A stretch of DNA of 64,000 bases from Deltaproteobacteria bacterium HGW-Deltaproteobacteria-18. Its GTDB lineage: Bacteria > Desulfobacterota > Desulfovibrionia > Desulfovibrionales > Desulfomicrobiaceae. The notes beneath the pieces were generated by a model. It saw only the letters and a list, made by a program, of their open reading frames with translations. It ran no database searches and was not told the origin of the DNA. Within the stretch, counting starts at the first letter, position 1. Each line of letters opens with the position of its first letter. Location: NCBI GenBank assembly GCA_002841885.1, contig PHBE01000001.1, forward strand, positions 186,001 through 250,000. The letters run 5' to 3'. Both the position numbers and the translations under genes were made by a program. Positions 10,369 to 54,865 of this stretch are shown in pieces.

Positions 10369-10544
10369 GCGTTCCGGGTCGGTCCGGGGCGGGGGCGGCA
10401 ACTGTCTGACTGAGCCAGGAATCGTTTGTTTTCCCGTCGCCTCCCATCCGGAGCGCAGCCTGTTGTTCGACAGCAGCGACGGGAAAACAGTACGAGGCCG
10501 GAGAAGGAGTTTTGGCGGCCCCGCCCCGGACCGACCCGGAATGC
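10369..10544 (+). repeat. Structured intergenic element, copy A
   Basis: A 176-nt element between fdhE and mobA. The outer stem is 10372-10394 with 10519-10541 (23 perfect pairs), extended by GCG/TGC. The inner stem is GTTTTCCCGTCGC (10428-10440) with 10476-10488 (13 perfect pairs). Conserved segments are CTGTCTGACTGAGCCAGG on the left and ACGAGGCCGGAGAAGGAG on the right. Both stems differ in sequence from most other copies but remain paired. No T-run follows, so it is not a plain terminator. Confidence 0.8.
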
Positions 10545-10624
10545 GGCCGTCCTGGTGCAAGCCAGTAAACCAAAAATACCGCACCCGCTGCCTTCCGGCT
10601 GCGGATCGCGGCACAGGGAAAAAC

Positions 10625-11194
10625 ATGATCGGATTGGTGCTTGCCGGAGGAAAATCATCCCGGCTCGGACAGGACAAGACCCGTGTCGTGCACGAAGGGC
10701 AGACCCTGCTCACGCGGACAGCCACGCTGCTGCAACGCCATGTTGACCAGGTCTATCTGTCCTGTCGGCATGCCCCCGCCGTGGACGGCCCCTGGCCCGT
10801 CATCACCGACGAAACGGAACGCATCGGTCCTGCTGGCGGCATCATCACGGCGCTGCGCAAATTCGGGGCACCGACCTTCGTCCTCGCCTGCGACCTGCCT
10901 TTCATGGAGGACAGCATCATCGAAAGGCTCATGGAAGCGCGGGAAAAACGCCCCCAGGATTGCGTGCTGACCACCTGGCAGCTCAAGGATTCGGGGTTCA
11001 TCGAAAACCTGGTCGCGATCTACGAGCCGCAGGCCCTGCCATTGCTGGAGAACGGCGTGGCCCAGGGACTCTTCAAGCTCAGCCGTCTCATCCCGGCCGA
11101 ACTGCGCCACTCGGTGATCTACACCGAAGACGAACGGCACATTTTCTTCAACGTCAATTACCCGGCCGATCTTGAGCAGCTGCAGGGCCGCTAG
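10625..11194 (+). CDS. mobA: Molybdenum cofactor guanylyltransferase MobA
   Basis: A 189-residue nucleotidyltransferase. The N-terminal signature LAGGKSSRLGQDK is the GTP-binding loop of MobA, followed by GPAGGIITAL and the metal-binding ACDLPFM. It converts molybdopterin to the guanine dinucleotide form used by formate dehydrogenase and related enzymes. The frame is open far upstream through the repeat element; the ATG at 10625 begins the family's conserved MIGLVLAGGKS, with a modest AGGGAA site. Its position just after fdhE supports a role in formate dehydrogenase maturation. Confidence 0.92.
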   Translation: MIGLVLAGGKSSRLGQDKTRVVHEGQTLLTRTATLLQRHVDQVYLSCRHAPAVDGPWPVITDETERIGPAGGIITALRKFGAPTFVLACDLPFMEDSIIERLMEAREKRPQDCVLTTWQLKDSGFIENLVAIYEPQALPLLENGVAQGLFKLSRLIPAELRHSVIYTEDERHIFFNVNYPADLEQLQGR

Positions 11195-11200
11195 AAAAAA

Positions 11201-11515
11201 CTATTTCCCGCGAACAAAATCAAGCTTGCCGACCCCCGGAACGTCCAGACGGACATTGCCGCCGTCGATCACGCCTTCGATCACCGCCCCGTCACGAGTG
11301 TGCACGTTCAGCGCCCCCTCGCGCACGGCCCACGAAAAAGGCAGGACCTCCCCCTCGATTTCCCACTTTCCGCTGCCGTCCCCGGCCAGGATCATGACCG
11401 CGTTCACCGACCCGCTGGGGCCCGTGTGCGAAGCCTCGTAGCGTCCTGCGAGGTCGGGCCGGGAGGAACAGGACAGACACAGAAACAGCATCAGAAGCGG
11501 CAGAAATTTCATCAC
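11201..11515 (-). CDS. Small putative lipoprotein
   Basis: About 103 residues with a lipoprotein signal peptide (FLPLLMLFLCLSC, lipobox LCLS-C), then a small beta-rich domain (GRYEASHTGPSGSVNAVMIL, GALNVHTRDGAVIEGVIDGG). It starts at a GTG or the adjacent ATG, overlapping the stop of the MauE-like gene. It is the last gene of a four-gene minus-strand envelope cluster and ends 6 bases from mobA's convergent stop. I do not recognise a specific function. Confidence 0.7.
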   Translation of the reverse strand: MMKFLPLLMLFLCLSCSSRPDLAGRYEASHTGPSGSVNAVMILAGDGSGKWEIEGEVLPFSWAVREGALNVHTRDGAVIEGVIDGGNVRLDVPGVGKLDFVRGK

Positions 11516-11991
11516 AGCCCGAGTTCCTCCGGTTTGAGCATGAAGAGGCGGTCCAGATGGATCAGCCGGTCATAAAAATACACATGAGCGGCCATGGTCA
11601 GCCAGACCAGATCCCTGAACACCGTCCACCACGAGATGGGCTCGCCCACGGACTGGAAGCAGCCGCAACCGATGGGCGTATCCTGAATCAGGGCCACCAG
11701 CACCGCCACGGTGAACATGGCCAGCATCCCGCCGATCAGCAGGCTCGCCGCCCGCACCCTGACGCCGGCCAGAAGAAAGAGTCCGCAGACCAGCTCAAGC
11801 CAGGGCATGAACACGGCCAGCGGATTGATCAGCCAGTACGGAACAATGAGATAGCCTGCGATGTTGTCCCCGAATTCGGCCGGAAAATTGATCTTGTGCA
11901 GGCTGGCGTAGATGAAAATCCCGGCCAAATAGAGGCGCAGGAGCAAGGCAAGGACAGGGTGGGTCAAAAGACCTTTCATTCGCGAGATCAT
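11512..11991 (-). CDS. MauE/DoxX-family inner membrane protein
   Basis: A 159-residue protein with four hydrophobic helices. It has the DoxX-like FIYASLHKINFPAEF segment and the GCGCF cysteine motif followed by SWWTVFRDLVWL, characteristic of MauE/methylamine-utilisation-type DoxX proteins. Members work with secreted thioredoxin-like proteins in thiol-disulfide chemistry. Its start overlaps the stop of the GAF-rhodanese gene, and a TlpA-like thioredoxin fold protein lies two genes upstream, consistent with a redox module. Confidence 0.85.
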   Translation of the reverse strand: MISRMKGLLTHPVLALLLRLYLAGIFIYASLHKINFPAEFGDNIAGYLIVPYWLINPLAVFMPWLELVCGLFLLAGVRVRAASLLIGGMLAMFTVAVLVALIQDTPIGCGCFQSVGEPISWWTVFRDLVWLTMAAHVYFYDRLIHLDRLFMLKPEELGL

Positions 11992-13601
11992 TGCGTGCCT
12001 CCGTCCAGAGCCAATGGCGGGACATCCTTGACGATATAGACCCGCTCATGGTCCCTGCCCAGAAACTTCGCGGCCACGATCAGGTCGTAGCGGCGGCTCA
12101 CGCTGCGTCCGAAAACCACTATGGGCCGCTCGGGGTCCTCGGCGGTCATTTGCATCATGTAGACCAGATCGAAAAGCTGGGCCGGAACATTGACCGCTCT
12201 TTGCGCATGCTCGCGTTCGTAAAACTCGCGCGGCCGAGCATCGACCAGAAGGGCATCCTCATTTTCGATGAGCGCCAGGGCCTGCTCCTGGGTCACGAAT
12301 GGAATTTCGGGGCCGGCCGGTTCGATCAGGGTGATTCCGCGGGGGTTCTGCTGGTTGAACGCCAGCGCCATGCCAAGGCTCAAAACCATGATCAGAAAAA
12401 AGTCGACCGGACGCACCCGGATCAGGCTCAGCGCCTTGCTGTGCACGATGCCGGCGATGCGCCTGCCTGCCGCCTCGAGCATGCTGATCTGGTTCCGGGC
12501 ATGCGTCAGTTCGTCGATGGTGCGGCGCAGCTCCTCGTTTTGCCTGGCCAGACCGTCGTTCAGGGCCATGATGGTCCTGAAGGAATCGGCATTTTTGAGG
12601 TGCAGGACGCCCTGGGAAACAAAGGCCTGCAGCAGGCCGTCCTCGGCGGGGACCATCGCACCGAGGCTTGGCCCCAGAAGCAGCACCCCGTACATGTTCT
12701 CGCGCAGCATGAAGAGATAGCCCCGATCGGGCTCGAAACCCAGCTCGATTTGCGCGGCTCCGCTCATGTCCTCGACAGGTTCGACCTGCAGGGGTTGCAG
12801 ATGCTTTTCCCGGACACCGCCCAGACACAGGAAGAAAAGCCTCTCCACCTCCTGATGGGCGAGCTCGGGCTTTGCCGGCAGACCGCTTGAAATTTCATGA
12901 ATCCGCCCTGAAGCGCGGTCATGCAGTAACAGGAGGCCCTGGGGCCGGGCAAAATGACCGAGCAAGGTCATCAGGAAGGTGGACATGACCTCAGCCATAT
13001 CCACGCGCAGAATTTCTCCGGAGAGGTCGCGCAAGGCGCTCAGGTGATAAATCTGGCGGTCGAGAGTGTCGTTCTGCTTGCTCAGCTCGGCATTGAGCAG
13101 TTCGACACGGGTGGCGTAGAGCGAAAACCTGAGACTGGTCTGGAAAAGGGTGCCAAGGCCCGCCACAAGCTGCCTGTCATTTTCGTCATAGGGACGCCCG
13201 GTCAGACTTTCTTCCAGACCGAGCACTCCATCCCGGCCGTCATCGAGAGGGCAGACCAGAAGGAGCTCGCATTTTCCGGGACAGAGCTCGCCTTGCAGCG
13301 AAGGCACGAAAAAAGAGGATTTGCGCTCCTCGCCCAGGGCGTCCAGGTGCTCGCGCAGCACCCGCGCATATTCGGGCGTCAGGCTCCTTGTGAGGCTGGA
13401 GCGGGTCATGAGCTCAAATTCGCCCTGACCGAGAATGGCCGCAAAACCGCCCCGGGCCCCTATCCCGCCCTGGGCCGAGAGCAGAAAAGCCTCCAGGATC
13501 CTGTGCGGATATCGCGCCCCGCTCAGTTCTGCTGCCGTGTCGAACAGAATCTGAAACTGATATCTGGCGCGATCGGCATCGCTTTCGGTTTGAGCCGTCA
13601 T
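11988..13601 (-). CDS. GAF-like sensor protein with a membrane anchor and C-terminal rhodanese domain
   Basis: A 537-residue protein. Residues about 20-165 and 195-330 look like two GAF-type domains separated by coiled coil (TRVELLNAELSKQNDTLDR). A second coiled coil (335-375) leads to one transmembrane helix (about 398-416, VDFFLIMVLSLGMALAF) and a rhodanese domain (430-535). The rhodanese loop reads VVFGRSVSRRYD where catalytic members have a cysteine, so it is probably inactive as a sulfurtransferase. It sits between a TlpA-like gene and a MauE-like gene with overlapping or near-overlapping ends. Confidence 0.75.
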   Translation of the reverse strand: MTAQTESDADRARYQFQILFDTAAELSGARYPHRILEAFLLSAQGGIGARGGFAAILGQGEFELMTRSSLTRSLTPEYARVLREHLDALGEERKSSFFVPSLQGELCPGKCELLLVCPLDDGRDGVLGLEESLTGRPYDENDRQLVAGLGTLFQTSLRFSLYATRVELLNAELSKQNDTLDRQIYHLSALRDLSGEILRVDMAEVMSTFLMTLLGHFARPQGLLLLHDRASGRIHEISSGLPAKPELAHQEVERLFFLCLGGVREKHLQPLQVEPVEDMSGAAQIELGFEPDRGYLFMLRENMYGVLLLGPSLGAMVPAEDGLLQAFVSQGVLHLKNADSFRTIMALNDGLARQNEELRRTIDELTHARNQISMLEAAGRRIAGIVHSKALSLIRVRPVDFFLIMVLSLGMALAFNQQNPRGITLIEPAGPEIPFVTQEQALALIENEDALLVDARPREFYEREHAQRAVNVPAQLFDLVYMMQMTAEDPERPIVVFGRSVSRRYDLIVAAKFLGRDHERVYIVKDVPPLALDGGTQ

Positions 13602-13615
13602 CTCCCGCTCCGCGA

Positions 13616-14158
13616 TCAGTCGAGCAGTGTCTTTATCTGCTGGTACAACGCGTCAATATCCTGAATCACGCCAAGGTGGTCGTAAACCACGCTCCCGTCC
13701 GGCTTGCAGACGATGGTGTAGGGCGTGAGCGGCTCACCCAGCACCTTGTGCAGCGCGTAGTCGGGATCGCTCAGGACCGGAAACAGGTACTGGCCGGTAC
13801 CCAGCAGTTGCCTGACTTCGGCGTCCGTACCTCCGGCGGCCAGCCCGAACATGGCCACCCGCCCCTTGAGCTTGCCCTTGTTCAAGCGGTTGAAAAGGGT
13901 CTTGAAGCCCGGCGACTGCTTGACGCACTGCGGACAGTACACGCCGATGACCTCGATGAAAACGAGATCGGCGCCAAGGTCGGCAAGCGTGAAGGTCGTT
14001 TTCCCCTGCACTCCGAGCATTTCCTGTGCGGCCGGATCGAAGGGGACGGGCAGGATCAGTTCGGGCATGGTGTCGCCGGTGGCGGGCGGCGCGGCCGAAA
14101 CGGGCCAGGCGGCGAAGAAAAGAAAGAGACATAAAGCAAATCGAATGAAAACCGTCAT
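13616..14158 (-). CDS. Periplasmic thioredoxin-fold (TlpA/AhpC-TSA-like) protein
   Basis: A 180-residue secreted protein. A signal peptide (FIRFALCLFLFFAAWPVSA) is followed by a redoxin domain with the active-site motif GVYCPQCVKQS. The CPQC pair sits where TlpA-like proteins have CxxC, so it is probably a thiol-disulfide oxidoreductase in the periplasm. It starts the minus-strand cluster with the GAF-rhodanese, MauE-like and lipoprotein genes; spacing to the next gene is 14 bases. Its redox partner is probably the MauE-like membrane protein, by analogy. Confidence 0.82.
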   Translation of the reverse strand: MTVFIRFALCLFLFFAAWPVSAAPPATGDTMPELILPVPFDPAAQEMLGVQGKTTFTLADLGADLVFIEVIGVYCPQCVKQSPGFKTLFNRLNKGKLKGRVAMFGLAAGGTDAEVRQLLGTGQYLFPVLSDPDYALHKVLGEPLTPYTIVCKPDGSVVYDHLGVIQDIDALYQQIKTLLD

Positions 14159-14190
14159 GCATACTCCTTGGCCCCGGGCCGAAAAAAAGC

Positions 14191-14904
14191 CTAGACGCAG
14201 GCCTGGTCCAGGCTGTCGAAAATCCGGACCATGCGGGTCAGTCCCACGATGCCGAAAACCTTGCGGAAATTCTCGGAAAGACCGGCCATGACAATCTCGA
14301 TGCCATCCCTTTCGCTCTCCAGCACCAGTTGGGTCAAAATGGCGATGCCGGCTCCGTTCACGGAGGTGTTTGGATCGAAATGCAGCACGATGCGCTGCAC
14401 CTTGGCTTCCTGGGCCTTGGCATAGGCTTCGCGGAGATACGGTTCGCTGTGGGAGCTGACGCTGCCCTGAATTTCAATGACCAGCGCCTGTCCCTGCCGG
14501 CTGACGCTGACCTCGTTCTGTCTGCTCTTGGCCAGCTTGAGCCGCTCTCTGGCCCGGGCCAGGCCCTGTTCGAGGCTCTGCCGCTGGATGGGTTTGTTTA
14601 TGAAATCGGCAGCGTCCAGATTGAGGGCCTGAATGGCCAGATCCATGTCGCCATGCCCGGTGATGACGATGACCTCAGTGGCGGGCGATCGTTTCTTGAT
14701 TTGCTGCAGGACCTCTATTCCGTCCATGCCGGGCATCTTGATGTCGGTCAGGACGATGTCGGGTTTTTCCCTGTCGAAAACCTCCAGCCCCTCTTCTCCG
14801 GATTCAGCGGTGAGAATGTCGAATCCGTAAACGTCCAGAAAAAGCCGGAACATTTTAAGGGTCGCCTTCTCGTCATCGATGACCAGGATTTTTTCTTGCG
14901 TCAT
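14191..14904 (-). CDS. Response regulator with C-terminal STAS domain
   Basis: A 237-residue protein. Residues 1-120 form a receiver domain (ILVIDDEKATLK, phospho-acceptor in DIVLTDIKMPGMDG, then VITGHGD and NKP). Residues about 130-237 resemble a STAS/anti-sigma-antagonist domain (VIEIQGSVSSHSEPYL, VLHFDPNTSVNGAGIAIL), not a DNA-binding domain. Its start overlaps the stop of the sensor kinase by ATGA, so the pair is a two-component system whose output probably acts by protein interaction. Confidence 0.85.
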   Translation of the reverse strand: MTQEKILVIDDEKATLKMFRLFLDVYGFDILTAESGEEGLEVFDREKPDIVLTDIKMPGMDGIEVLQQIKKRSPATEVIVITGHGDMDLAIQALNLDAADFINKPIQRQSLEQGLARARERLKLAKSRQNEVSVSRQGQALVIEIQGSVSSHSEPYLREAYAKAQEAKVQRIVLHFDPNTSVNGAGIAILTQLVLESERDGIEIVMAGLSENFRKVFGIVGLTRMVRIFDSLDQACV

Positions 14905-16955
14905 TGCTCTATCCCGTTGGGTTGCGCCGAACTTTCGTCGACTCGGCTTGCGTTGTGCTCAAGCGCCTGATGACTCTCGGCGCTCGGGAAACTCAATATG
15001 AATGTTGTCCCCTGACCCGGTTGACTGTCAATAGTAATGGTTCCGCCGTAATCGCGGACAATGCCGTATGTTATGGCCAGGCCGAGCCCCATGCCCTTGC
15101 CGGTCTGCTTGGTGGTGAAAAAAGGTTCGAAGATCTTGTTTCGGACCGAATCCGCTATGCCTGGGCCGTTATCGGAGAAAGACGCGAAAACCCGGCCGTC
15201 CTTGGTGTAGGTACGCACCAGGATGTCTCCCCACATGCCGGGTTCGTTTTCCATCTTTTCCTGGATGGCGTCACGGGCGTTGTTGAGCAGATTGAAAAAG
15301 ACCTGCTGCAGCCGGTTGTTGTGCCCCTTGATGTGCGGCAGGCCCTCGCCAAGTTCCAGGCGGATGGTGATGCGCTGAATGGAGAACTGGCGGCCGATGA
15401 TGGACAGTACCCCGCGGATGGGCTCGTTCATGTCCACGCGCTCCATGACCAGGCCCGATTTCTTGCCGAAGGCGCGCAGGTTGTTGATGATGTCCGTGGC
15501 CCGGTCCACCTGCTGGCTGATCTCCGTGGCCATGTCCCGGATCTGGGTTTCGGTCACTTCCCGGTTCTGTTCGATGAGCAGGTTGAGATACTCGCTGCCC
15601 ATCTTGATGGCGTTCAGGGGCTGATTGATTTCATGGGCGATGCCCGCGCTCATTTCACCCAGGGTCTTCATCTTGGCCGCCTGCACGAGCTGCGCATCCT
15701 TCTCCATCATCTCGGTTATGTCGGTCACGGCCACGATCATGGCGTGGGTACCGCCGTAGCTGATGGGACAGGCGTGCATGTTGACGTAAAAGGGCCTCTC
15801 GCCTTTTTTGTAGTGCAGTACCTTGGGATAATAGACGCAGCCACTGTTCGTCTGCGCCTCATTGAGAGAATTCAGACATTCCCGGATCTGATCGTGCCCC
15901 AGAACCATGAAGGACACGCCCAGCAATTCGCCTTTGGAATATTCATAAAGCTCTTCGGCCCTCGGGTTGGCATCGAGTATCCGATCCGTGTTGCAGTCCA
16001 CGACAAAAATTGGATCGGGGCCGGAGTCGAAGAGGGAGCGATACTTCATCTCCGATTCCTGCAGGCGCTTGCGGTAGAGGCGGATGGACCAGACCATGCT
16101 CATGAACGAATCGGCCAACTGAATGACCTCGTCACCCTCCCGCTTGCGGTAGAACAGGCAGGTCGCACAGACTTGGCCTGTCTTACCCTTTGATTTCAAA
16201 GATTTGCGCCCCTGATCATCAAAATGCCAGCAGGGCATGTTGGTGTCCTTGTAGGCCGGGCAGTTGGTCACCGCCCAGTCAAGGCCCTCGCCGAGATCCA
16301 GATGCACATCGAAATTCCCCCGGCTGAGCTCATCGGAAATATTCGTCAACCGCGAAATCGGGCTGGTGATATAGCGCGAAATGCGATGGCTGACATAGAA
16401 GATGATAATAATGACCGCCGAGATGAATCCCAGAAACATGAATCTGAGCTTGGCCACCAGCTTGTCGATATGCTCCTTGCTAAGGCCCACGTGCACCGTT
16501 CCGATGCGGTACAGACCCTCGTTCATGGACACGGCAATGTCATAGGAGGTCTGCGAACCCACCGCGACCAGACGAACGCTGTGCATGTTCCCTTCGAGGA
16601 CTGGATTGGCGGTGCTCAAGGGGTCTGGAAAAGGCACCGTGAACGTGTGGGAGAGAACCTTCTCGCTGCGATCGAGCACATATATGTAGTTGATCATGTG
16701 CTGGCGTTCCCGCAAGCGGGCTTCCTCGAAAATGAGGCTGAGCAGTTCGGAATAGTTCTTGTCGAGCACAAACCCGCCGCCGCGCTCGGCAATGGAATGG
16801 GCCACGGCAATGCCGCGCAGTTCCAGCTCCTTGGTCAGCCCGGAGATGAGAATCCAGCGGGCCAGGAGCGCGATGGTCACGCTGATGAGGAGAATGACGG
16901 CCAGGATGGAGATGAAGATCTTGTTTTTGAGCGAAATGCGTGCGTAGGGTTTCAT
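14901..16955 (-). CDS. Membrane sensor histidine kinase (HAMP, Cys-rich insert, PAS, HisKA, HATPase)
   Basis: A 684-residue kinase. TM1 is near residues 13-36, an extracytoplasmic domain follows, TM2 is near 165-185, then HAMP. A cysteine-rich insert follows ([13 protein letters not shown], then [10 protein letters not shown]; four to five Cys), then PAS (about 300-420), HisKA ([14 protein letters not shown]) and HATPase ([28 protein letters not shown]). The insert resembles the 'two-CW' type seen in deltaproteobacterial kinases. It overlaps the binding-protein gene upstream and the REC-STAS gene downstream (ATGA each), which suggests the binding protein feeds ligand information to it. Confidence 0.9.
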
Positions 16956-18199: not shown

Positions 18200-18458
18200 A
18201 TCAGCCTCCCTTCAGGAAATCGTTGTATGCCCGGGCCTTGAGTAGCTAAAAAAAACAGCTTGCGCCACTGAAACTCCTGGGCTTGCTCTCGTGGAGCAAG
18301 GGCTGTATTCTGTGCAAAACCATGAGTTTTATCCATGAGTCCAAGAGTATTGTGTCTTTTATGGCAGAATCTAATCCAGATATATCTTGCTTAAAACAGA
18401 TATCCGCAAAATGCACAGAATCATGATTGCCCAATGTTTTGCACAGGAATATTAATAT
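18200..18458. other. AT-rich intergenic region with an inverted repeat before the transposase-like gene
   Basis: This spacer separates two divergent genes. A 15-16-base inverted repeat flanks its right half: TATTCTGTGCAAAAC (18306-18320) and GTTTTGCACAGGAATA (18436-18451), with a third related word ATGCACAGAATCATG near 18412. It may be a binding site for the zinc-ribbon/HTH protein encoded just downstream, or a relic transposon end. The second arm also supplies the AGGAA ribosome site of that gene. Confidence 0.45.
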
Positions 18459-25537: not shown

Positions 25538-25696
25538 GGTCCGCTGCCGCCATCGTCTTGAGGCCCGTCGGCTGTCTGACTGAGCCAGGCATCGATTGTT
25601 GAACCGTTGCCTGACACATCACCAAAGTTTTCCACCCTGTGCGCAACGATTCAACGTTACGAGGCCGGAGAAGTAATTCCGGAGGGTCTAAAGACC
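25538..25696 (+). repeat. Structured intergenic element, copy B (3' arm truncated)
   Basis: It has the conserved left segment (CTGTCTGACTGAGCCAGG at 25572-25589), inner stem GTTGAACCGTTGC with GCAACGATTCAAC (one mismatch) and right segment ACGAGGCCGGAGAAG. The 3' outer arm stops after about 12 bases at GGGTCTAAAGACC, and the right loop is mutated (GTAATT for GGAGTT). A 26-base direct repeat starting CATTCAACCC precedes both this copy and copy C, giving a 175-bp tandem duplication. It is probably the degenerating member. Confidence 0.75.
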
Positions 25697-25712: not shown

Positions 25713-25887
25713 GGTCCGCTGTCGCCCTGGCCTTGGGGCCCGTCGGCTGCCTGACTGAACCAGGCATCGTTAGTTGAATCGTTGCCTGACGCATCACCGG
25801 AACTTTCCACCCTGCGCGCAACGATTCAACTTTACGAGGCCGGAGAAGGAGTTCCGGCGGGTCTCAAGGCCAGGGCGACAGCGGACC
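25713..25887 (+). repeat. Structured intergenic element, copy C
   Basis: A 175-nt complete copy. The outer arms start GGTCCGCTGTCGCCC and end with its complement, pairing 30 positions; the only two non-Watson-Crick positions are G-U in plus-strand RNA. The inner stem GTTGAATCGTTGC with GCAACGATTCAAC is perfect. The left hairpin is GCCTG-ACTGAAC-CAGGC and the right hairpin GCCGGA-GAAGGAGT-TCCGGC. Confidence 0.82.
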
Positions 25888-25931
25888 GTTTGCCGTACAA
25901 GGCCTCAATCTTGTTCCATTCAAAAAAAGCA

Positions 25932-25964
25932 AAGCCCCCGTTACAATAACCTTGGCGGGGGCTT
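25932..25964 (-). terminator. Intrinsic terminator of cobH
   Basis: A 9-bp stem AAGCCCCCG (25932-25940) with 25956-25964. On the minus strand it is followed by TTTGCTTTTTTTG, so it terminates the minus-strand cobH transcript 31 bases after its stop. Confidence 0.85.
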
Positions 25965-25994
25965 CATTTATTTCATGGACAGATCAATGCCGCC

Positions 25995-34652: not shown

Positions 34653-34695
34653 AAAGACCTCACTTGAAAAAACCATGTTTTCAAGTGAGGTCTTT
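34653..34695 (+). terminator. Long intrinsic terminator after the pseudouridine synthase gene
   Basis: AAAGACCTCACTTGAAAA (34653-34670) pairs perfectly with 34678-34695 around a 7-base loop, an 18-bp stem whose 3' side ends in TCTTTGTATTT. It separates the cupin/RluA operon from the repeat array. Confidence 0.85.
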
Positions 34696-34756
34696 GTATT
34701 TCGATCTCAAATCAATTTATCTTCCGCCTCAAAAGCACTTCTCTTCAGCACCTCAA

Positions 34757-34931
34757 GGTCCGGTGTCGTCATGGTCTTGAGGCGCGTCGGCTGTCTGACT
34801 GAGCCAGTCATCGTTTGTTGAACCGTTGCCGGACGTGCCGCCCCGATTTTTCGCCCTGCACGCAACGGTTCAACTCTACGAGGCCAGCGAAGGAGTTCCG
34901 GCGGGCCTCAAGGCCATGGCGACGCCGGACC
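34757..34931 (+). repeat. Structured intergenic element, copy D1
   Basis: First of three 175-nt copies in a 270-bp tandem array. The outer arms start GGTCCGGTGTCGTCATGG and end GGCCATGGCGACGCCGGACC; three T-for-C differences in the 5' arm leave U-G pairs in plus-strand RNA. The inner stem GTTGAACCGTTGC with GCAACGGTTCAAC is perfect. The P2 hairpin carries one change (CAGTC for CAGGC). Confidence 0.82.
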
Positions 34932-35026
34932 GCGTGCCGCAGAAAACCCCTCATGCTCCGCCAAGTCAGATCAAAAATTCCTCTTCCAACTCACCGCAAC
35001 AAAAGCACTTCCCGCCAGCGCCTCAA

Positions 35027-35201
35027 GGTCCGGTGCCGTTATGGTCTTGAGGCGCGCCGGCTGTCTGACTGAGCCAGGCATCGTTTGTTGAACCGTTGCC
35101 GCACGTGCCGCCCCGATTTTTCGCCCTGCACGCAACGGTTCAAATCTACGAGGCCAGCGAAGGAGTTCCGGCGGGCCTCAAGGCCATGGCGACGCCGGAC
35201 C
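35027..35201 (+). repeat. Structured intergenic element, copy D2
   Basis: Second tandem copy, 175 nt, 270 bases after D1. The outer arm has GGTCCGGTGCCGTTATGG, again differing from full complementarity mainly by U-G changes. The inner stem is intact apart from its last pair (CAAA for CAAC). The 95-base spacers between copies are also repeated nearly exactly (for example CGCGTGCCGCAGAAAACCCC). Confidence 0.82.
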
Positions 35202-35296
35202 GCGTGCCGCAGAAAACCCCCTCATGCTCCGCCAAGTCAGATCAAAAAATCCTCTTCCAACTCACCGCAACAAAGCACTTCCCGCCAGCACCTCAA

Positions 35297-35471
35297 GGTC
35301 CGGTGTCGTCATGGTCTTGAGGCGCGTCGGCTGTCTGACTGAGCCAGGCATCGTTTGTTGAACCGTTGCCGGACGTGCCGCCCCAATTTTTTGGCCTGCA
35401 CGCAACGGTTCAACTCTACGAGGCCAGCGAAGGAGTTCTGACGGGCCTCAAGGCCATGGCGACGCCGGACC
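35297..35471 (+). repeat. Structured intergenic element, copy D3
   Basis: Third tandem copy, 175 nt, 270 bases after D2, with outer arms like D1, a perfect inner stem and a slightly altered P4 3' side (TTCTGACGG for TTCCGGCGG). Downstream the composition becomes AT-rich, leading to the rhodanese gene. Confidence 0.82.
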
Positions 35472-35535
35472 GCGTGCCGCCAACATCTCTTTTACCATAC
35501 GCATTTCTGACAGGCCCACTTTTATCTACAAAATT

Positions 35536-43114: not shown

Positions 43115-43122
43115 TGATGCTC

Positions 43123-44010: not shown

Positions 44011-44234
44011 GCGTCATCTCCCGAAGCATCGGATTGCGCCGAGGATTCCTGGCCGGCGCTCTCCACAATGACGCGGGCCTGCTCGAGTTCCGCGCCGCAT
44101 TCCCTGGAGAGCCGCACGCCCTCCTGAAAGAGTTTCACGCCCTGCTCCAGAGGCAGGTCGCCTCCTTCAAGCAGCGCCGTGATCTCCTTGACCCGCTCAA
44201 GCCGCTTTTCGAAAGTTTGCTGTGTCTTTGCCAT
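44007..44234 (-). CDS. xseB: Exodeoxyribonuclease VII small subunit
   Basis: A 75-residue XseB (FEKRLERVKEITALLEGGDLPLEQGVKLFQEGVRLSRECGAELEQA) of normal size, which multimerises on XseA in exonuclease VII. It overlaps ispA and lies 12 bases after the M23 peptidase gene, in the order xseA-M23-xseB-ispA-dxs. Confidence 0.95.
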   Translation of the reverse strand: MAKTQQTFEKRLERVKEITALLEGGDLPLEQGVKLFQEGVRLSRECGAELEQARVIVESAGQESSAQSDASGDDA

Positions 44235-44246
44235 GTCGCGCCTTTT

Positions 44247-46489: not shown

Positions 46490-46560
46490 GTTGCGATGAT
46501 ATCGGTTGGGCCGGAATGTCGCGACATCGTCGCATCAGTCCGGCACGTTCCGGCGGCAGG

Positions 46561-48303: not shown

Positions 48304-48490
48304 GAAATGTCTCCTCGATAATATATCTAAGTAAATAAATTAGTTAAATTAAATTTAGATTTGCCGGAGTACTGCAGGCCCGATTCTGCCCGACGGAACG
48401 TGCAGCGGGCTGCTGCACAAGTTGAAACGCAGTACCCTCAAATAAAACAGACCACAGTGCCTCAAAGCGCAGCATCATAGTCGGCGAAAG

Positions 48491-49582
48491 TCACGCCTTC
48501 AACTCCCCTTCCGCCTGCTCCGCAAGCCTCTCCGCCAGTTCCAGCAGATCGGTGCCTCGCGCAAGGCCGTCCGTGAAGCGCCAGGGAATGCCGGAAAGTC
48601 CCGTCTGGGCCCCGACCAGGGCTCCGGTCAGGATGGCCCTGGCCTGATTCTGTCCGCCGCCGTTCACCGCGTGGAGCACAGCGGATTCAAAATCGTCACG
48701 AAAACGTGCCGCCAGATAGTACGCCGCGGGCAGTTGATGGTAGATGGCGCAGGGCATGCCATAGACCAGGGAGACCTTCCAGGCCGGTTCGATGCGCACG
48801 TCAGGGTCCGCAGCCGCAGCGGCCATGTAAGCTGGGGACAAGAGCGCATCCGGAGACGCGAAACGACCGGCGCGCGGCGGATCGGGATCCCCCGGCCTTG
48901 GCGGCTGAAGGTTCTCGCGGGTCACGGCGTGAAACGGCAGGTCCCCGGTCTTGACCAGCTTCATGAGCCGGTCCGAAATTAGCGCGTCCAGCGGATGCCC
49001 CTGCACCAGTTGCCCGAGCACGGCGCAGTAGGCCACGGTCAGGGACAGAACGAGGTCGTCGTCCTGAGTCAGGGCAGCGTTGTCGGCCACGGCCGTGGCA
49101 AGCTGCGCAGGATCCTTTGCGTAGCGCACCGCAATGGCCAGGGTGCGCTCGATGGCCTCGGTGGTGTCGGCCTGTCCTGCGGTCTGCCCCCATGGCAGTT
49201 TTTGCTTTACGCGCCGCCTCCAGGCTTCGCGGATGGACTGACTGGTGTAGCTCCCAGGTCCGCTCACGGGCGTCCCGTCGAGCAGGGGAAACAGCTCATG
49301 GTCCATGCGCTGGCAAAAATCCTCGACGTCATGGCCGCCGCGCTCCACCAATGAGGCCAGGGTCAGTTCGAGGATGAACCCCGCCTGGGACTGCTGCCCG
49401 GCCCGCAAGCCGTCATGATAGCGGCCGGGTTTCGGATCTGTGTAGCCGGTGATCCAGTCGCCGTAATCGCGACGCAGGTCATCCAGATCGTAGTACCAAT
49501 GGGGTCCAAGGGCCAGGGCGTCCCCGATGAAGGCCCCCATGATTGCCCCCGCGGCGCGGTCCTGAAAATCCTTACCAGGCAT
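48491..49582 (-). CDS. ADP-ribosylglycohydrolase-family protein
   Basis: A 363-residue ADP-ribosyl-glycohydrolase fold protein. The N-terminal AAGAIMGAFIGDALALGPHW contains the family's GDALG-like motif and the C-terminal AVNGGGQNQARAILTGALVGAQTG corresponds to the metal-binding GGDxDT region, with Asp replaced (GGGQNQ), so hydrolase activity may be changed. A GGAGGAG site favours the ATG at 49582. It lies between proS and ispG. Confidence 0.8.
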   Translation of the reverse strand: MPGKDFQDRAAGAIMGAFIGDALALGPHWYYDLDDLRRDYGDWITGYTDPKPGRYHDGLRAGQQSQAGFILELTLASLVERGGHDVEDFCQRMDHELFPLLDGTPVSGPGSYTSQSIREAWRRRVKQKLPWGQTAGQADTTEAIERTLAIAVRYAKDPAQLATAVADNAALTQDDDLVLSLTVAYCAVLGQLVQGHPLDALISDRLMKLVKTGDLPFHAVTRENLQPPRPGDPDPPRAGRFASPDALLSPAYMAAAAADPDVRIEPAWKVSLVYGMPCAIYHQLPAAYYLAARFRDDFESAVLHAVNGGGQNQARAILTGALVGAQTGLSGIPWRFTDGLARGTDLLELAERLAEQAEGELKA

Positions 49583-49636
49583 GTCTCTCCTCCGTTCGGC
49601 AGGCATTTTCATAAGCGGGCATCGGCAGGCACGCTT

Positions 49637-50776
49637 TCATGCAATGCCCCGCCGCTCTTCCAGAAATTTCTCCAGCTCCTCCATGAAGGCAGGCAGCAGC
49701 TCCGCGCGGCCCTTCACCTTGCGCACGACCTCGCCCTTGCGGAAGATGAGCCCCGAGTCCCGTCCGCCGGCCACGCCGATGTCCGCTTCCCGCGCTTCGC
49801 CGGGGCCGTTGACCACGCAGCCCATGACCGCCACGGTAAAAACCTCTTCCACTCCGCGCAGCCTGTCTTCCACGGCGTTGGCCAGCTCGATGAGACCGAT
49901 CTCGGTTCGACCGCAGGTCGGGCAGGACACGATCTCCGGACCTCTGGACCGAAGCCCGAGGGCGCGCAGGATCTCCCAGGCCACGAGCATTTCCTCGACA
50001 GGATCAGCGGTCAGCGAAACCCTGAGCGTGTCGCCGATGCCCTCGGCCAGCAGGATGCCGAGACCCACCGAGGACTTGACCGCCCCGCGCATGGCCGTCC
50101 CGGCCTCGGTCACGCCGATGTGCAGCGGATAGTCCACGGTTTTCGCCATGAGACGATAGGCGGCGACCGTGCCGAGCACACTTGATGATTTGAGCGAAAT
50201 CTTGATAGCGTCGAATCCTCTCTCTTCAAGCAGACGCACATGCTCAAGCGCGCTCTCGACCATGGCCGCCGGAGTAGGACCGCCGTATTTTTGCAGCAGG
50301 CCCTTGTCCACGGAACCGCTGTTCACGCCGATGCGGATGGGCACTCCGGCCGCCCGGGCCGCATGCACCACGCGGTCGACCTTGTCCGGCCCGCCGATGT
50401 TGCCGGGATTGATGCGCAGGCCCTTCACGCCCGCTTCCACGGCCTGCACGGCCAGGCGGGAATCGAAGTGAATGTCGGCGATGAGCGGAACGGGCGTTGC
50501 GGCGCAGATGCTTTTGAGGGCCAGGGATGCTTCAAGGTCCAGCACGGCCAGGCGCACGATCTCGCAGCCGGCGGAGGCCAGGGCCGCAATCTGGGCCAGG
50601 GTCGCGTCCACGTCGCGGGTGTCCGTATTGGTCATGGACTGCACGCGCACGGGATTGCCACCGCCGATACCCACGCCGCCCACGAAGAGGGAGCGGGTCC
50701 TGACGCGCGGGGCCAAAATGGGAGAATCCGCACAAAGATCCGGACAAGGATGCGAGGAGGCAGCTGGGGTTGTCAT
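49637..50776 (-). CDS. ispG: 4-hydroxy-3-methylbut-2-enyl diphosphate synthase (GcpE)
   Basis: A 379-residue iron-sulfur enzyme of the MEP pathway converting MEcPP to HMBPP. It has a TIM-barrel start (PVRVQSMTNTDTRD), LRINPGNIG, and the cluster cysteines in VSCPTCGRTEIGL and AVMGCVVNGPGEAREADIG. The N-terminal about 25 residues are variable and the ribosome site is poor, so the start is approximate. It is functionally tied to dxs and ispA of the same region. Confidence 0.95.
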   Translation of the reverse strand: MTTPAASSHPCPDLCADSPILAPRVRTRSLFVGGVGIGGGNPVRVQSMTNTDTRDVDATLAQIAALASAGCEIVRLAVLDLEASLALKSICAATPVPLIADIHFDSRLAVQAVEAGVKGLRINPGNIGGPDKVDRVVHAARAAGVPIRIGVNSGSVDKGLLQKYGGPTPAAMVESALEHVRLLEERGFDAIKISLKSSSVLGTVAAYRLMAKTVDYPLHIGVTEAGTAMRGAVKSSVGLGILLAEGIGDTLRVSLTADPVEEMLVAWEILRALGLRSRGPEIVSCPTCGRTEIGLIELANAVEDRLRGVEEVFTVAVMGCVVNGPGEAREADIGVAGGRDSGLIFRKGEVVRKVKGRAELLPAFMEELEKFLEERRGIA

Positions 50777-50842
50777 GGCGGGGGAGCGTAATGAATTTGA
50801 CCGTCAAAGCCAAGGACGGGAAATCCGAAAATATCCCCCCTC

Positions 50843-50858
50843 TGTCAGCTAGGCGACA
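50843..50858 (+). promoter_or_regulatory. CooA-type operator upstream of cooS
   Basis: TGTCA-GCTAGG-CGACA exactly matches the TGTCA-N6-CGACA half-site arrangement known for CooA in Rhodospirillum rubrum. Its centre (50850.5) would be about 42 bases upstream of a start near 50892 if TAGAAC (50881-50886) is the -10 element, the class II activator position. It is 116 bases from the cooS ATG, and a cooA-like gene ends the same cluster. Confidence 0.8.
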
Positions 50859-50973
50859 GACAGAAAAACGTGCAATGGTCTAGAACAGTCCAAATGGACC
50901 GCCAATGGGCGGCGTGACGTATTCATCATCCCAAAGTCCGGCGATAGGCCGCGAAACCAAAAGGAGGACGTGC

Positions 50974-52857
50974 ATGGCCAAGGAAAGAGAAATCCAGGAT
51001 TTGAGCCCCTGGGAAGACGCCCAGAAAATGATCGCCAAGGCTGGACGCGAGGGAGTGAATCTCGTCTGGGACCGGCTCAAAGACCAGACCCCCCACTGCA
51101 CCTTCTGCGAACAGGGCCTGACCTGCAGCAAATGCGTCATGGGCCCCTGCCGCATCAATCCCAAGGGGCCGAAGAAAATGCTCGGCGTGTGCGGCGCCGA
51201 CGGCGACCTGACCGTGGCCCGCAACTTCGGGCGCTTCGTGGCCGCCGGGGCCGCAGCGCACTCGGACCATGGCCGCGATCTGCTGGAGACGCTGGCGGCC
51301 ATCGGCGAGGGGCAGACCACCGACTACGGCATCCGCGACGAGGCCAAGCTTGAACGCATCTGCAAGGAACTGGGCATTGAGACCCAGGGGCTGACGGTGC
51401 GCGAACAGGCCAAGGCTCTGGCGAATCTGTTCTTCGAGGATTACGGCTGCCGCTCCCACAACGTGGCCTTCAGCAGCCGCGCACCCCAGAAACGCAAAGA
51501 CGTCTGGAAACGTTTCGGTTGCACCCCGCGCGGCATCGACCGCGACTGCGTGGAGATGCTCCACCGCACGCACATGGGAGTGGATTGCGACCCGGTCTCC
51601 ATCTGCCTGCACGCCAGCCGCGTGGCGCTAGCCGACGGCTGGGGCGGATCCATGATCGCCACCGAAATCTCGGACATCATCTTCGGCACGCCCAAACCCG
51701 TCAAATCCCTGGTCAACCTGGGTGTCCTCAAGGAGGACCAGGTCAACATCCTGGTCCACGGCCACAGCCCCATCGTGTCCGAGATGATCCTGGCAGCGGC
51801 CCGCGAGCCCGAAATCCTGGCCAAAGCCAAAGAGGTCGGAGCCCAGGGCATCAACATCGCGGGACTGTGCTGTACGGGCAACGAGCTGCTCATGCGCCAG
51901 GGCGTGCCCATGGCCGGCAACCATCTCATGACCGAGCTCGCCATCGTGACCGGCGCGGTGGAGATGGTCATCGTGGACTACCAGTGCATCATGCCGAGCC
52001 TCGTGAACGTGGCAAACTGCTATCATACCAAATTCGTCTCAACTTCGGACAAGGCCAAGTTCCCCGGCGGCATCCACATGGAATTCAACTTCAAAAACGC
52101 CCGCGAGAAAGCCCGCGAAGCAGTGCTCATGGCTGTTGAAGCCTACTCGCGCCGCGATCCCGACAAGGTCGAGATTCCGTCGAAGCCCATGTCCATCACC
52201 TCCGGCTTCTCCAACGAAGCCATCCTGGGCGCCCTGGGCGGAACCCCCGAACCGCTCGTTCAAGCCCTGGCGGCCGGAAAGGTGCGCGGCGTGGTCGGCA
52301 TCGTTGGCTGCAACAACCCCAAGCTCAAGCACGACCATGTGCACGTGAACCTGGCCCAGGAGCTGATCAAACGCAACATCCTGGTGTTAGCCACTGGCTG
52401 TGCTACCGTAGCCATGGGCAAGGCCGGACTTCTGGAGCCGGAAGCGGCCTCGCGGGCCGGGGCAGGCCTTAAGGAAATCTGCCAGGCGCTGGGCATCCCG
52501 CCGGTGCTGCATGTGGGCAGCTGCGTGGACAACTCGCGCATCCTGCACATCTGCGCCGTGCTGGCCAACCATGCGGGCCTGGACATCAGCGATCTGCCAG
52601 TGGCGGCCAGCGCGCCCGAATGGTACTCTGAAAAGGCGGCAGCCATCGGCCTTTACGCCGTGGCCAGCGGAATCTACACCCACCTCGGCCTGCCGCCGCA
52701 CATCCTGGGCAGCTCCATGATCACGACCCTGGCGCTAAAAGGCCTGGATGACGTCTTCGGGGCATGCTTTGCCGTTGAACCCGGCCCCTTGCAGGCCGCG
52801 GAACTGATCGATGAACGCATCAAGGCCAAACGTCTGGCCCTGGGCTGGCCCGCCTAG
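50974..52857 (+). CDS. cooS: Anaerobic carbon monoxide dehydrogenase, catalytic subunit
   Basis: A 627-residue Ni-Fe-S CODH. The N-terminus has the D- and B-cluster cysteines (CTFCEQGLTCSKCVMGPCRI), and C-cluster ligands lie in the VHGHSP (His), GLCCTGNE, VGCNNPK, ATGCATVAMGK and GSCVDNSRI segments. It oxidises CO to CO2 in the cytosol. AAGGAGG precedes the ATG. cooC follows, but no cooF ferredoxin or hydrogenase genes are present, so electrons must go to a carrier encoded elsewhere. Confidence 0.95.
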   Translation: MAKEREIQDLSPWEDAQKMIAKAGREGVNLVWDRLKDQTPHCTFCEQGLTCSKCVMGPCRINPKGPKKMLGVCGADGDLTVARNFGRFVAAGAAAHSDHGRDLLETLAAIGEGQTTDYGIRDEAKLERICKELGIETQGLTVREQAKALANLFFEDYGCRSHNVAFSSRAPQKRKDVWKRFGCTPRGIDRDCVEMLHRTHMGVDCDPVSICLHASRVALADGWGGSMIATEISDIIFGTPKPVKSLVNLGVLKEDQVNILVHGHSPIVSEMILAAAREPEILAKAKEVGAQGINIAGLCCTGNELLMRQGVPMAGNHLMTELAIVTGAVEMVIVDYQCIMPSLVNVANCYHTKFVSTSDKAKFPGGIHMEFNFKNAREKAREAVLMAVEAYSRRDPDKVEIPSKPMSITSGFSNEAILGALGGTPEPLVQALAAGKVRGVVGIVGCNNPKLKHDHVHVNLAQELIKRNILVLATGCATVAMGKAGLLEPEAASRAGAGLKEICQALGIPPVLHVGSCVDNSRILHICAVLANHAGLDISDLPVAASAPEWYSEKAAAIGLYAVASGIYTHLGLPPHILGSSMITTLALKGLDDVFGACFAVEPGPLQAAELIDERIKAKRLALGWPA

Positions 52858-52981
52858 CCCGGTACCGCCCACTCTCAAGCGGGTAAAAACAGGGGAGCCT
52901 GCGCTCCCCCATCCAAACTGGCTGCCTAAAGAATTCAAAATTCGCAGGCCGTTTTTGAGCGGCCTGCTGAAGGAGCATCGC

Positions 52982-53758
52982 ATGAAGATCGCATTCGCGG
53001 GCAAGGGCGGCGTGGGCAAGACCACACTGTGCGCCTGGCTGGGGGATTATCTGGCACGGCAGGGGCACGACGTGCTGCTGGTGGACGCGGACACGGCGCT
53101 CAGTCTGGGCCAGGCCAGCGGACTTGAGGCCGCAGAGCTGCCCGTGCCCCTCTATGCGCGCGAGGATCTGGTCCGCGAACGCATCGGCAGCGGCTACCTG
53201 AGCCTCAATCCAGACGTGTCCGACCTGCCCGAAGAACTCAGCGTCGAGCTGCCGGTGCAGAACGACGGAGGCCCGCGCCCGGGTCGCAAGCGGCTGCTGA
53301 CCATGGGCTCCATCACCGGGGCCGGGGACGGTTGCGCCTGCGCGGCCAACGCCCTGCTCAAGTCCGTGCTGGCCCATCTGGTACTGCGGGAAGAAAACTA
53401 CGTACTGGTTGATCTGGAAGCCGGGGTGGAACATCTGGGACGGGGCACAGTGGCCGGGGTCGATGCCCTGGTGGTGGTCAGCGAACCAAGCCGCCGGTCG
53501 CTGGAAACGGCGGCCAGGGTAGGCGCACTGGCCGAAGAACTGGGACTTTCGCGACAGGTGCTGGCAATCAATCGGGGCGTCGGCGAACCCGAACTGCCCG
53601 CAATGGCGGGACTGCCCGAAAACGTGGTGCATCTGCCGATCCTGCCGAGCCTGGTCGACCGGCAACTGATCCAGGCCAGCGTCCTGAATCTGGCCGACGG
53701 CCCTGTGGTCGATGCCGTATGCGCCCGGTTGCTCGCAGCAATGACTCGAAATTCCTGA
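52982..53758 (+). CDS. cooC: CO dehydrogenase nickel-insertion ATPase CooC
   Basis: A 258-residue MinD/ArsA-like P-loop ATPase (AFAGKGGVGKTTLCAWLGDYL) with the CooC CxC metal motif (DGCACAANALLK). It supplies nickel to the CODH C-cluster using ATP. I chose the ATG at 52982, with AAGGAG upstream; the open frame begins earlier without similarity. It lies 124 bases after cooS. Confidence 0.93.
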   Translation: MKIAFAGKGGVGKTTLCAWLGDYLARQGHDVLLVDADTALSLGQASGLEAAELPVPLYAREDLVRERIGSGYLSLNPDVSDLPEELSVELPVQNDGGPRPGRKRLLTMGSITGAGDGCACAANALLKSVLAHLVLREENYVLVDLEAGVEHLGRGTVAGVDALVVVSEPSRRSLETAARVGALAEELGLSRQVLAINRGVGEPELPAMAGLPENVVHLPILPSLVDRQLIQASVLNLADGPVVDAVCARLLAAMTRNS

Positions 53759-53897
53759 AAGTTGCCTGCGGCCTCACGCCGAGACGCTGGACACATGGCC
53801 CGCAAACCAGCATGAATCCGCAAAAGCGGGGGGGCATCCAGGCCGATTCCTTCGCCCGGAGTCCCTTTCTTCCACGGATCACAAGCCGGAGCTGCCC

Positions 53898-54575
53898 ATG
53901 CGCCTGACCGAAATCACGCTGCTGCAAGACCTCCATCGCCCGGAGATGGCTCCCGTCCGCAAGCTCTTCAGCTCCCGGAAGTTTGTCCGGGGAGCCTTGG
54001 TCTTCGAGCCCAAGGCCGGGGACCAGATCTTCATCGTGACCTCCGGGCGGGCCCGCGTGTACCTTGCCTACCGCGACAAGGAATTCACCATGGCCATGCT
54101 CGATGCCGGCGATGTTTACGCGACCCACACCAGAGCCTACGTCCAGGCTCTGGACGACCTTGAAATCCTCATCGCCAGCGTTTCCGAAGTCCGCCGCTAT
54201 CTTGGCTCCATGCCCAGCTTCAACTCCGCCATGATCCACGTGCTGGGCGACCTTCTGTCCCACGCCATCTCGGTCATCGATACCCTTGCCTTCAAGGACG
54301 TGCGCAACCGGCTCATCGAATTTCTGGTCTACGAGGCCAGACGCCTGCCCCGCTGCCGGGAATGCCGCCACTGCGGCCAGTGCGAAGACGGCGGCATGGT
54401 CTCCCTGGGCCTCAATACGGAGCAGATGGCGACCATCATCGGCTCATCCCGCCAGACAGTCTCATCCCTGCTCAACGCCCTGGCCAAGGAAGGCGTCATC
54501 CAGCTCAAAGGCCGCGGCGTCATCTGCATTCCCGATATCGCGGCGCTCGAAGGCTGCGCGGCGCAGGAAAACTGA
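53898..54575 (+). CDS. cooA: CooA-type CRP/FNR-family CO-sensing regulator
   Basis: A 225-residue CRP/FNR protein: an N-terminal cyclic-nucleotide-binding-like sensor domain, a long dimer helix and a C-terminal HTH (MATIIGSSRQTVSSLLNALAKEGVI). Histidine 77 in GDVYATHTRA falls at the heme-ligand position of R. rubrum CooA (His77), while Cys75 is replaced by Ala. A cysteine-rich loop (CRECRHCGQC) sits before the HTH. Together with the cooS-cooC context and the TGTCA-N6-CGACA site, CO-dependent control of cooS is likely. Confidence 0.87.
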   Translation: MRLTEITLLQDLHRPEMAPVRKLFSSRKFVRGALVFEPKAGDQIFIVTSGRARVYLAYRDKEFTMAMLDAGDVYATHTRAYVQALDDLEILIASVSEVRRYLGSMPSFNSAMIHVLGDLLSHAISVIDTLAFKDVRNRLIEFLVYEARRLPRCRECRHCGQCEDGGMVSLGLNTEQMATIIGSSRQTVSSLLNALAKEGVIQLKGRGVICIPDIAALEGCAAQEN

Positions 54576-54691
54576 TTCAACAGCACATTTAAGTTGCAAT
54601 GCAGTGGGATGGGAAAGTGAACGTGGATTGCAGGACTAAACTGCATGAAATGCACGGATTGCTCGGCTGCACTCGCAATGAGGCGATTCGA

Positions 54692-54865
54692 GCGTTCCGG
54701 TTTGAGCCGGGCGAGGGGCGCCGACTGTTTGACTGAGTCAGGCATCGTTTGTCCAATCGTTGCCGTTCGTCTTGCGCCGGCTTTTCGGGTCGGCACGCAA
54801 CGACTGGGCATTACGAGGCCCGCGAAGGAGTTTCGGCGGCCCTCGCCCGGCTCAAACCGGAACGC
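54692..54865 (+). repeat. Structured intergenic element, copy E
   Basis: A 174-nt copy between cooA and the convergent radA. The outer stem is GCGTTCCGGTTTGAGCC-led and pairs 26 positions perfectly with its 3' arm ending CCGGAACGC. The inner stem is GTCCAATCGTTGC with GCAACGACTGGGC (one U-G, one mismatch), and the left hairpin is GTTTG-ACTGAGT-CAGGC with two U-G pairs. The right segment is ACGAGGCCCGCGAAGGAGTTTCGG. Outer and inner stems differ in sequence from the other loci but remain paired. Confidence 0.82.

Follow-up and report, generated by a model that had tools for sequence, protein, structure and literature searches.

What is the hairpin-forming sequence that recurs seven times between genes in a 64,000-nt stretch of the genome of Deltaproteobacteria bacterium HGW-Deltaproteobacteria-18 (contig PHBE01000001.1, positions 186,001 to 250,000 of the forward strand; hereafter, the window), and what keeps it folded? 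An earlier note on this DNA had proposed an undescribed structured RNA. Our computational follow-up revealed a dispersed, palindromic element of ~175 nt, most economically viewed as a mobile hairpin whose plus-strand fold serves either the host or the element itself after insertion. More specifically, we favor, with a probability of about 0.53, a mobile family of such hairpins whose plus-strand fold is kept as an RNA that is read by a double-stranded RNA (dsRNA) protein and affects neighboring transcripts. Throughout, G000 designates the window's own genome, other G numbers its relatives, and L numbers element loci; g7 is a second genus, placed in another family of the order.

The fold was assessed on 36 non-redundant copies out of 139 collected, in which the plus strand forms one continuous rod consisting of a basal stem (P1), an internal loop, rod P2, P3, and an apex. 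P1 extends over ~30–34 bp, equivalent to some three helical turns, and its sequence is nearly free. Above it, an asymmetric internal loop, CUGUYUGA/GAGUU, is conserved, with single-base variants occurring across groups, and leads to an upper stem (rod P2 plus P3) of roughly 20–25 bp that ends in an apex of variable sequence. Rod P2 pairs GGCAUCGU on the left with ACGAGGCC on the right, the variants found elsewhere being GGAUUCG/CGAAGCC, GCCUGCG/CGCAGGC, and GCCCUGC/GCAGGGC. Pairing was scored in 89.6% of the rod cells vs 66.8% upon shuffling, two-sided changes affected 35 of the 39 rod pairs (313 cells vs 91 in shuffles), and the covariation score reached 0.583, compared with 0.179 in shuffled and at most 0.153 in slid alignments. 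Unprompted, RNAalifold returned the same rod, with kept two-sided changes at 31 of 35 pairs. Helices do therefore covary, as the earlier note had anticipated, but within one continuous rod instead of the four-way junction drawn there. That junction is rejected, since neither of its hairpins covaries: its P2 (GUCUG/CAGGC) has no two-sided change and pairs in 87.8% of cases vs 87.7% in shuffles, and its P4 in 53.2% vs 54.0%.

The length of P1 is far more constrained than its sequence. It measures 33–34 bp in 48 of 64 Desulfomicrobium copies (30–34 bp in 54/64) and 30–34 bp in 48 of 70 copies from outside this genus, the remainder being mostly shorter, partly truncated or out of register; in a distant family of the phylum, the stem finder could measure 16 of 24 copies, which have 30–36 bp. 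P3 also covaries, but without a clear G-U excess, whereas covariation beyond shuffles and strand-specific use of G-U, the marks of a structured RNA, were both found in the basal stem. The loop can be read as tandem G-A steps (GANNGA/GANNGA; left strand 128/134, right strand 113/134, mostly Desulfomicrobium and g7 copies) that enclose two covarying base pairs, CT/AG in 99 and CC/GG in 15 of 134 copies. As a general loop feature this reading was discarded, the inner G-A pair being lost in the distant family. Nor do we claim a kink-turn, because, by eye, the helix beside the bulge does not fit. Folding energies of three window copies (D1, A, and E) lay 9.2–10.7 SD below those of dinucleotide shuffles, with 0/200 shuffles as good. 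The plus strand outfolds its complement in six of the seven window copies, the exception being the truncated copy B, as expected from the remark in the earlier note that most stem changes leave G-U pairs on that strand.

Orthologous loci offered a view of how the fold evolves in place. The sister complete genomes G009 (52 matches) and G015 (42) share 30 one-to-one orthologous copies, of which 28 were compared. Divergence amounted to 10.9% in the apex (97/886) and 6.1% in P1, dropping to 1.8% in both rod P2 (8/448) and P3 (13/728). The right loop strand GAGTT accumulated no changes (0/140) and the left one 3.1%; the two strands between loop and rod P2 diverged by 3.1% and 6.6%, and alignable flanks by 6.7% (22 of 56 flanks, a biased subset). 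Single changes in P1 converted Watson-Crick (WC) pairs to G-U 44 times, to A-C 7 times, and to other mismatches 19 times, and 11 double changes replaced one WC pair by another. These double changes are isolated, non-adjacent pairs at seven loci, and apex transitions are symmetric (C/T 31, A/G 32), which argues against tract conversion or template-switch perfecting of the palindrome on the one hand and against strand-biased mutation on the other. For standing pairs inside P1, Desulfomicrobium has a G-U:A-C ratio of 121:10 and the other groups have one of 48:17 (other mismatches, 86 and 61, respectively), which became 18:4 and 8:1 upon removal of copies >80% alike; stem interiors of a distant long-apex form yielded 39:1. 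The G-U bias towards the plus strand thus holds in the basal stem on recent, standing, and distant evidence. Natural selection keeps the plus strand folded after insertion, most simply as RNA.

The locus of window copy A is also filled in the sister species G009 and G015, with paired stem changes, and several matched P1 substitutions separate G000 from G015. The stem is nearly alike in G000 and G009, though G009 and G015 are the closer genomes, so that copies may at times also convert or replace one another.

How the element travels is best seen outside Desulfomicrobium, where 73 copies were inspected. In g7, the hairpin often makes up the inside of miniature inverted-repeat transposable elements (MITEs). 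Thirty-five of the 73 copies lie between GTAACTACTCAG-type terminal repeats (type-a), 20 of them with 8-bp target duplications (up to one mismatch), and 11 between CAGGGCANTTTTGTTCTCAC-type repeats (type-b, CAGGGCA frames), 6 of them with 10-bp duplications (up to two mismatches), while 27 fit neither frame. An exact 8-bp duplication flanks 12 of 26 listed end pairs, some of them core-less. Outside Desulfomicrobium, the element hence displays both the terminal inverted repeats and the target-site duplications of a MITE, in keeping with the mobile unit that the earlier note had listed among its guesses. The concern raised there that an insertion sequence (IS)-derived repeat would undo the proposal came close to materializing, as the element often resides inside transposable elements in g7. 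Type-a and type-b flanks, although unrelated, thus enclose one and the same hairpin core. Conversely, type-a termini in G029 also surround a quite different, core-less interior, and type-b ends recur in three families (L049 of G017, L042 of G035, and the g7 genomes). An IS66 label for the type-a frame is no more than suggested by its GTAA ends and 8-bp duplications, the hallmark of IS66. No IS66 transposase was found in G024, G041, or G029, whereas it is present in G033 and G049. None could be tied to type-a ends; the sole exact terminal repeat near such a gene faces away from it, and another gene intervenes.

Within Desulfomicrobium, the element shows only short, semi-conserved ends, AGCG before and a CGCGNCCGC-like motif after the stem, and inspection by eye of flanks and occupied/empty loci, with no systematic scan run, disclosed no target duplication. 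Here, copies are largely kept in place between sister genomes, and the occupancy of individual loci varies. Locus BC, with window copies B and C, holds one copy in G001, G009, and G015 and is empty in G002, G003, G012, G013, and G014; locus D, with copies D1–D3, holds two copies in G002 and G009, two copies plus remnants of lost ones in G013, and none in G012. In G015 (L089, G015:C1:1040204), the whole hairpin at locus D is inverted with unchanged flanks outside the stem, apparently a precise inversion at the stem ends. Autonomous versions, in which the apex would hold a gene, were sought in G000 by a local covariance search (E up to 1; 150 out of 651 candidates were scored) and rejected: the search listed full-length copies only, plus one cut by a contig end, and apex length is nearly constant, the long-apex form aside.

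Other repeats accompany the element in some of these genomes. G029 hosts a second MITE population (L179, L182, L188, L194, and others) with GTAACTACTCAGCA termini, several with exact 8-bp duplications, whose 161–192-bp interior carries TCGGAATC-type repeats forming a hairpin of their own; with up to one mismatch, the end pattern has 76 forward and 80 reverse matches in this genome. Two more dispersed palindromes, a GGATTCCCGCCTTCGCGGGAATGAC-type repeat and CAACCACCCCGCCCTTCGGGCACCCCTCCTTGGCAGGAGGGGAG, occur beside elements in G009/G015 flanks.

A covariance model built from the seven window copies, with 150 of the 651 first-look candidates scored, located the element at 41 places in the 3.99-Mb own genome; the remaining 7 of the 48 resulting rows read these sites in antisense. 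Twenty-five of these copies lie on the contig plus strand and 16 on the minus strand, so that the uniform plus orientation reported earlier is true of the window and not of the genome. Public genome records contain 27 stretches with the exact core pattern: 19 in one Proteobacteria assembly, 4 in Desulfomicrobium, 1 in Desulfovibrionales, and 3 as single matches in unrelated records. Matches were present in 11 of 16 Desulfomicrobium genomes and in all eight sampled g7 genomes, with 51 in the own-genus relative G001, 68 in G041, and at most 71 in one genome. A broader model matched at least 34 of 199 genomes of the order, representing 8 of 43 genera (16 candidates scored per genome), as well as 13 of 17 genomes of the distant family. 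Three of 395 genomes of an even phylum sample (8 candidates scored each) matched, two from this distant family and the third being the window's own. Carriage by phages found no backing, the exact right-core pattern being present in 0 viral contigs. Rfam 15 recognized only three tRNAs in the window, and in nine element loci (E up to 1) a single plant-microRNA match to a distant copy, at 33.5 bits vs a cut-off of 139.7; this agrees with the earlier note, which recognized no known family.

Gene context was derived from a home-made, noisy gene caller, which mis-called a gene before copies B/C. The element prefers convergent over divergent gaps (20:2 in G000, 13:3 in other Desulfomicrobium copies, 10:5 in other families, and 14:1 and 15:2 loci in the sister genomes). 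The position behind sense genes attributed to it in the earlier note found no support on these rough calls: with co-directional neighbors, sense (++) vs antisense (--) placements numbered 8:3 in G000 (11 with doubtful overlapping open reading frames) and 6:0 in other Desulfomicrobium copies, and amounted to 19:20 in other families and to 9:8 and 7:9 loci in the sister genomes. Consistent sense orientation was therefore not used as evidence.

How, then, might the fold act? In g7, the family has spread as MITE cargo, presumably moved in trans by cellular transposases. Its plus-strand RNA would be recognized by a dsRNA-binding or -processing protein, an RNase III-type enzyme being the obvious candidate, that may read both stem length and loop, and this recognition would set the stability or processing of transcripts crossing the intergenic region. 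We infer that the folded strand is RNA from the large G-U excess and from the one-strand conservation of a mismatched loop. Which protein is the partner and how transcripts are affected is our guess, drawn by analogy with transcribed bcr repeats (PMC3446304) and with NEMIS and ERIC, whose RNAs have been proposed, in a review (PMC2229807), as an RNase III target and as modifiers of mRNA stability, respectively. A bolder version, which we regard as unlikely, envisages a self-standing mobile rod RNA that is under selection for an activity of its own. Its stem would act as a "ruler" of three turns, its CUGUYUGA/GAGUU loop would be invariant, MITE frames of at least two unrelated types would carry it between bacterial families, and each genome would supply tens of locus-specific double-stranded hairpins to a dedicated processing protein. 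If true, this would be a bacterial counterpart, by its logic alone, to the scattered hairpins that serve as small-RNA precursors.

Several observations weigh against an RNA read in this way. The co-directional counts given above reveal no consistent sense placement, and neither a sigma-70-like promoter nor a T-run accompanies the hairpin above control level (93 copies, G009 and G015), leaving no evident source of a plus-strand transcript. In P3, G-U and A-C counts are 57:69 in all copies, 3:4 and 6:0 in non-redundant sets, and 6:2 among recent changes. P1 does vary in sequence between copies, as the earlier note stated, but is not nearly perfectly paired, as it also held: Desulfomicrobium stem interiors contain the 86 mismatches other than G-U and A-C already mentioned, and recent P1 changes led to such mismatches 19 times vs 7 to A-C. 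Selection for pairing alone would deplete both kinds alike and does not account for the rarity of A-C, and this mismatch spectrum makes us hold the RNA interpretation slightly less firmly. The right-strand stretch just before GAGTT diverges as much as the alignable flanks (6.6%, 13/196). Candidate partners are also missing: RVT_1 is absent from the element-rich genomes G000, G001, and G015 (41, 51, and 42 matches), although divergent retron reverse transcriptases could escape this search, and Y1/RAYT is absent from G041 despite its 68 matches. RAYT/Y1 was likewise not near any copy in G000 and remained unmatched in the element-bearing genomes G003 (fragmented) and G014. Given the element's presence in genomes without a match to them, neither a reverse transcriptase nor a RAYT partner is required by its distribution. 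A RAYT-like transposase remnant, so labeled after an HFHLV motif that we take as diagnostic, lies at L042:1004-1321 between two CAGGTTGATTAGTTGACA copies, near the best element copy of G035; we read this vicinity as a coincidence.

Part of this evidence would be accommodated if the selected fold were that of single-stranded DNA (ssDNA), exposed on the lagging strand or during conjugation or transposition, with stem and loop serving as a recognition site for a recombinase, an HUH-type transposase, or a nuclease, as in REP/RAYT. The missing promoter and the lack of orientation bias relative to genes in the sister genomes would then be natural, the apparently precise inversion at locus D in G015 and the tandem duplication are DNA-level events at the hairpin, and G-T is favored over A-C in DNA too, if less strongly, a further point that counts against RNA. 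However, G-U outnumbers A-C by 44:7 and 39:1, an excess more to be expected of RNA than of DNA, RAYT/Y1 is missing near the elements of G000 and from G041, G014, and G003, and the 8-bp duplications in g7 are of the kind typical of DDE transposases. We consider an ssDNA signal improbable, yet worth keeping in sight.

Somewhat less plausible still is a functionless, parasitic palindromic MITE, the pairing of which would stem from strand-switching repair and from young or gene-converted copies. The frames with target duplications in g7, the weaker G-U bias outside Desulfomicrobium (48:17), the events of palindrome loss, inversion, and duplication, and the greater similarity of the copy A stem between G000 and G009 than between the sisters G009 and G015, as under conversion, are all compatible with such a parasite. 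But palindrome perfecting predicts equal numbers of G-U and A-C instead of the 44:7 seen next to an apex without asymmetry, and a parasite would explain neither the retention of a mismatched internal loop, nor an upper stem that diverges six times less than the apex, nor compensatory changes in isolated pairs. The excess of convergent over divergent gaps (20:2 in G000; 14:1 and 15:2 in the sisters, on rough gene calls) and the location of the locus BC copy between a stop codon and a terminator-like repeat (25923–25973) rather evoke an ordinary 3'-end hairpin, tolerated between convergent genes and shielding mRNA 3' ends without a recognition protein of its own; shielding of this type has been proposed for REP and boxC repeats. 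A generic hairpin, though, could do without a constant stem length and an unchanging loop, whereas GAGTT showed 0/140 changes and the loop is found again in a distant family, and orientation is not consistently sense. We deem this explanation quite doubtful, and the least probable of those considered. An RNA read by a dsRNA protein remains our preferred interpretation.

Known systems resemble the element in part. 6S RNA, encoded by a single gene and presenting a promoter-like bubble, is likewise rod-shaped, of comparable length, and has a conserved bulge at its center. No Rfam 6S match was obtained, however, and the element's mobility and number of copies speak against identity with 6S RNA. 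REP/REPIN are intergenic palindromes whose spread depends on a transposase that acts in trans and recognizes hairpins in single-stranded form. Like them, the element is a dispersed intergenic palindrome; unlike them, it has no RAYT gene nearby in G000. REP units are 20–40 bp long (PMC3116915, PMC3733652). According to a review (PMC2229807), ERIC and Correia/NEMIS are, as here, dispersed, non-autonomous, MITE-like repeats of <200 bp whose transcripts form long stem-loops, and most ERIC/Correia-like elements covered there bear terminal inverted repeats and TA termini. They belong to other bacterial groups, with any sequence relation to the element checked through Rfam only, and differ from it in that here the interior is shared, the outer stem varies freely in sequence while keeping its length, and two unrelated frames are used. 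The bcr1–bcr18 repeats of the Bacillus cereus group are also dispersed and intergenic, partly MITE-like and partly endowed with conserved RNA secondary structure, and in two strains, 84 of 165 and 62 of 155 copies, respectively, were found to be transcribed; they come from other bacteria and were compared by description, which in the portion consulted does not mention a stem of measured length that carries a conserved internal loop (PMC3446304). Geobacter, among the former Deltaproteobacteria, has many families of dispersed, partly palindromic intergenic multicopy sequences, likewise compared by description; the element may coincide with one of them, and one quoted core (GRCGTAGCGCTGCTACGCC) does not match by eye (PMC2700814).

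MITE-like intergenic hairpin repeats with structured transcripts are hence an already known kind, exemplified by ERIC, Correia, and bcr. What sets the element apart from the families compared is the measured, sequence-free stem with a conserved loop, the unrelated frames, and selection at fixed loci. No description of it was found in the open-access papers searched, subscription journals and supplements being outside this scope. Bacterial hairpin repeats are usually written off as transposon debris or generic mRNA-end stabilizers; here, sister-genome loci show that the fold has recently been under strand-specific selection once inserted, and stem length, not sequence, is kept across families, with one conserved loop in different transposable frames. 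The preferred reading leads to a concrete prediction that is testable in a culturable sulfate reducer: there should be a protein that gauges the length of the stem and recognizes the loop. If borne out, it would show a regulatory RNA spread through transposition.

Alignment and repeat finding recovered the seven window copies, all on the plus strand, at exactly the coordinates of the earlier note and with the same common left and right segments; arm complementarity in copies A, C, and E likewise corroborated its long outer stems. Copy A (10369–10544) is a whole hairpin with arms 10369–10401/10512–10544 (33 nt, 91% complementary) and loop strands CTGTCTGA (10402–10409) and GAGTT (10507–10511). 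Copy B (25538–25696) is truncated, most of its right outer arm being gone where copy C starts, and scored 133.1 bits in the own-genome covariance search vs 154.9 bits for copy C. The latter (25713–25887) is whole, with arms 25713–25746/25854–25887 (34 nt, 91% complementary) and loop strands CTGCCTGA (25747–25754) and GAGTT (25849–25853). Copy D1 (34757–34931), with loop strands CTGTCTGA (34791–34798) and GAGTT (34893–34897), and copies D2 (35027–35201) and D3 (35297–35471), both tandem duplicates of a 270-bp unit, are whole hairpins within an array of the ~270-bp unit at 34724–35490 (three 227-nt repeats, spacing 270). Copy E (54692–54865), also whole, has arms 54692–54724/54833–54865 (33 nt, 97% complementary) and loop strands CTGTTTGA (54725–54732) and GAGTT (54828–54832). 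Because D1–D3 are tandem duplicates, flanks included, and B is the truncated partner of C, the independent loci number four.

Two further inverted repeats neighbor these copies. At locus BC, the element sits between the stop codon and the terminator-like repeat 25923–25973, and a perfect 18-bp inverted repeat, also terminator-like and found in G002 and G013 as well, occupies positions 34653–34695 between the upstream gene and the D array. Elsewhere in the window, an ordinary tRNA cluster, Gly(GCC)-Cys-Gly(TCC), lies on the minus strand at 5173–5411.

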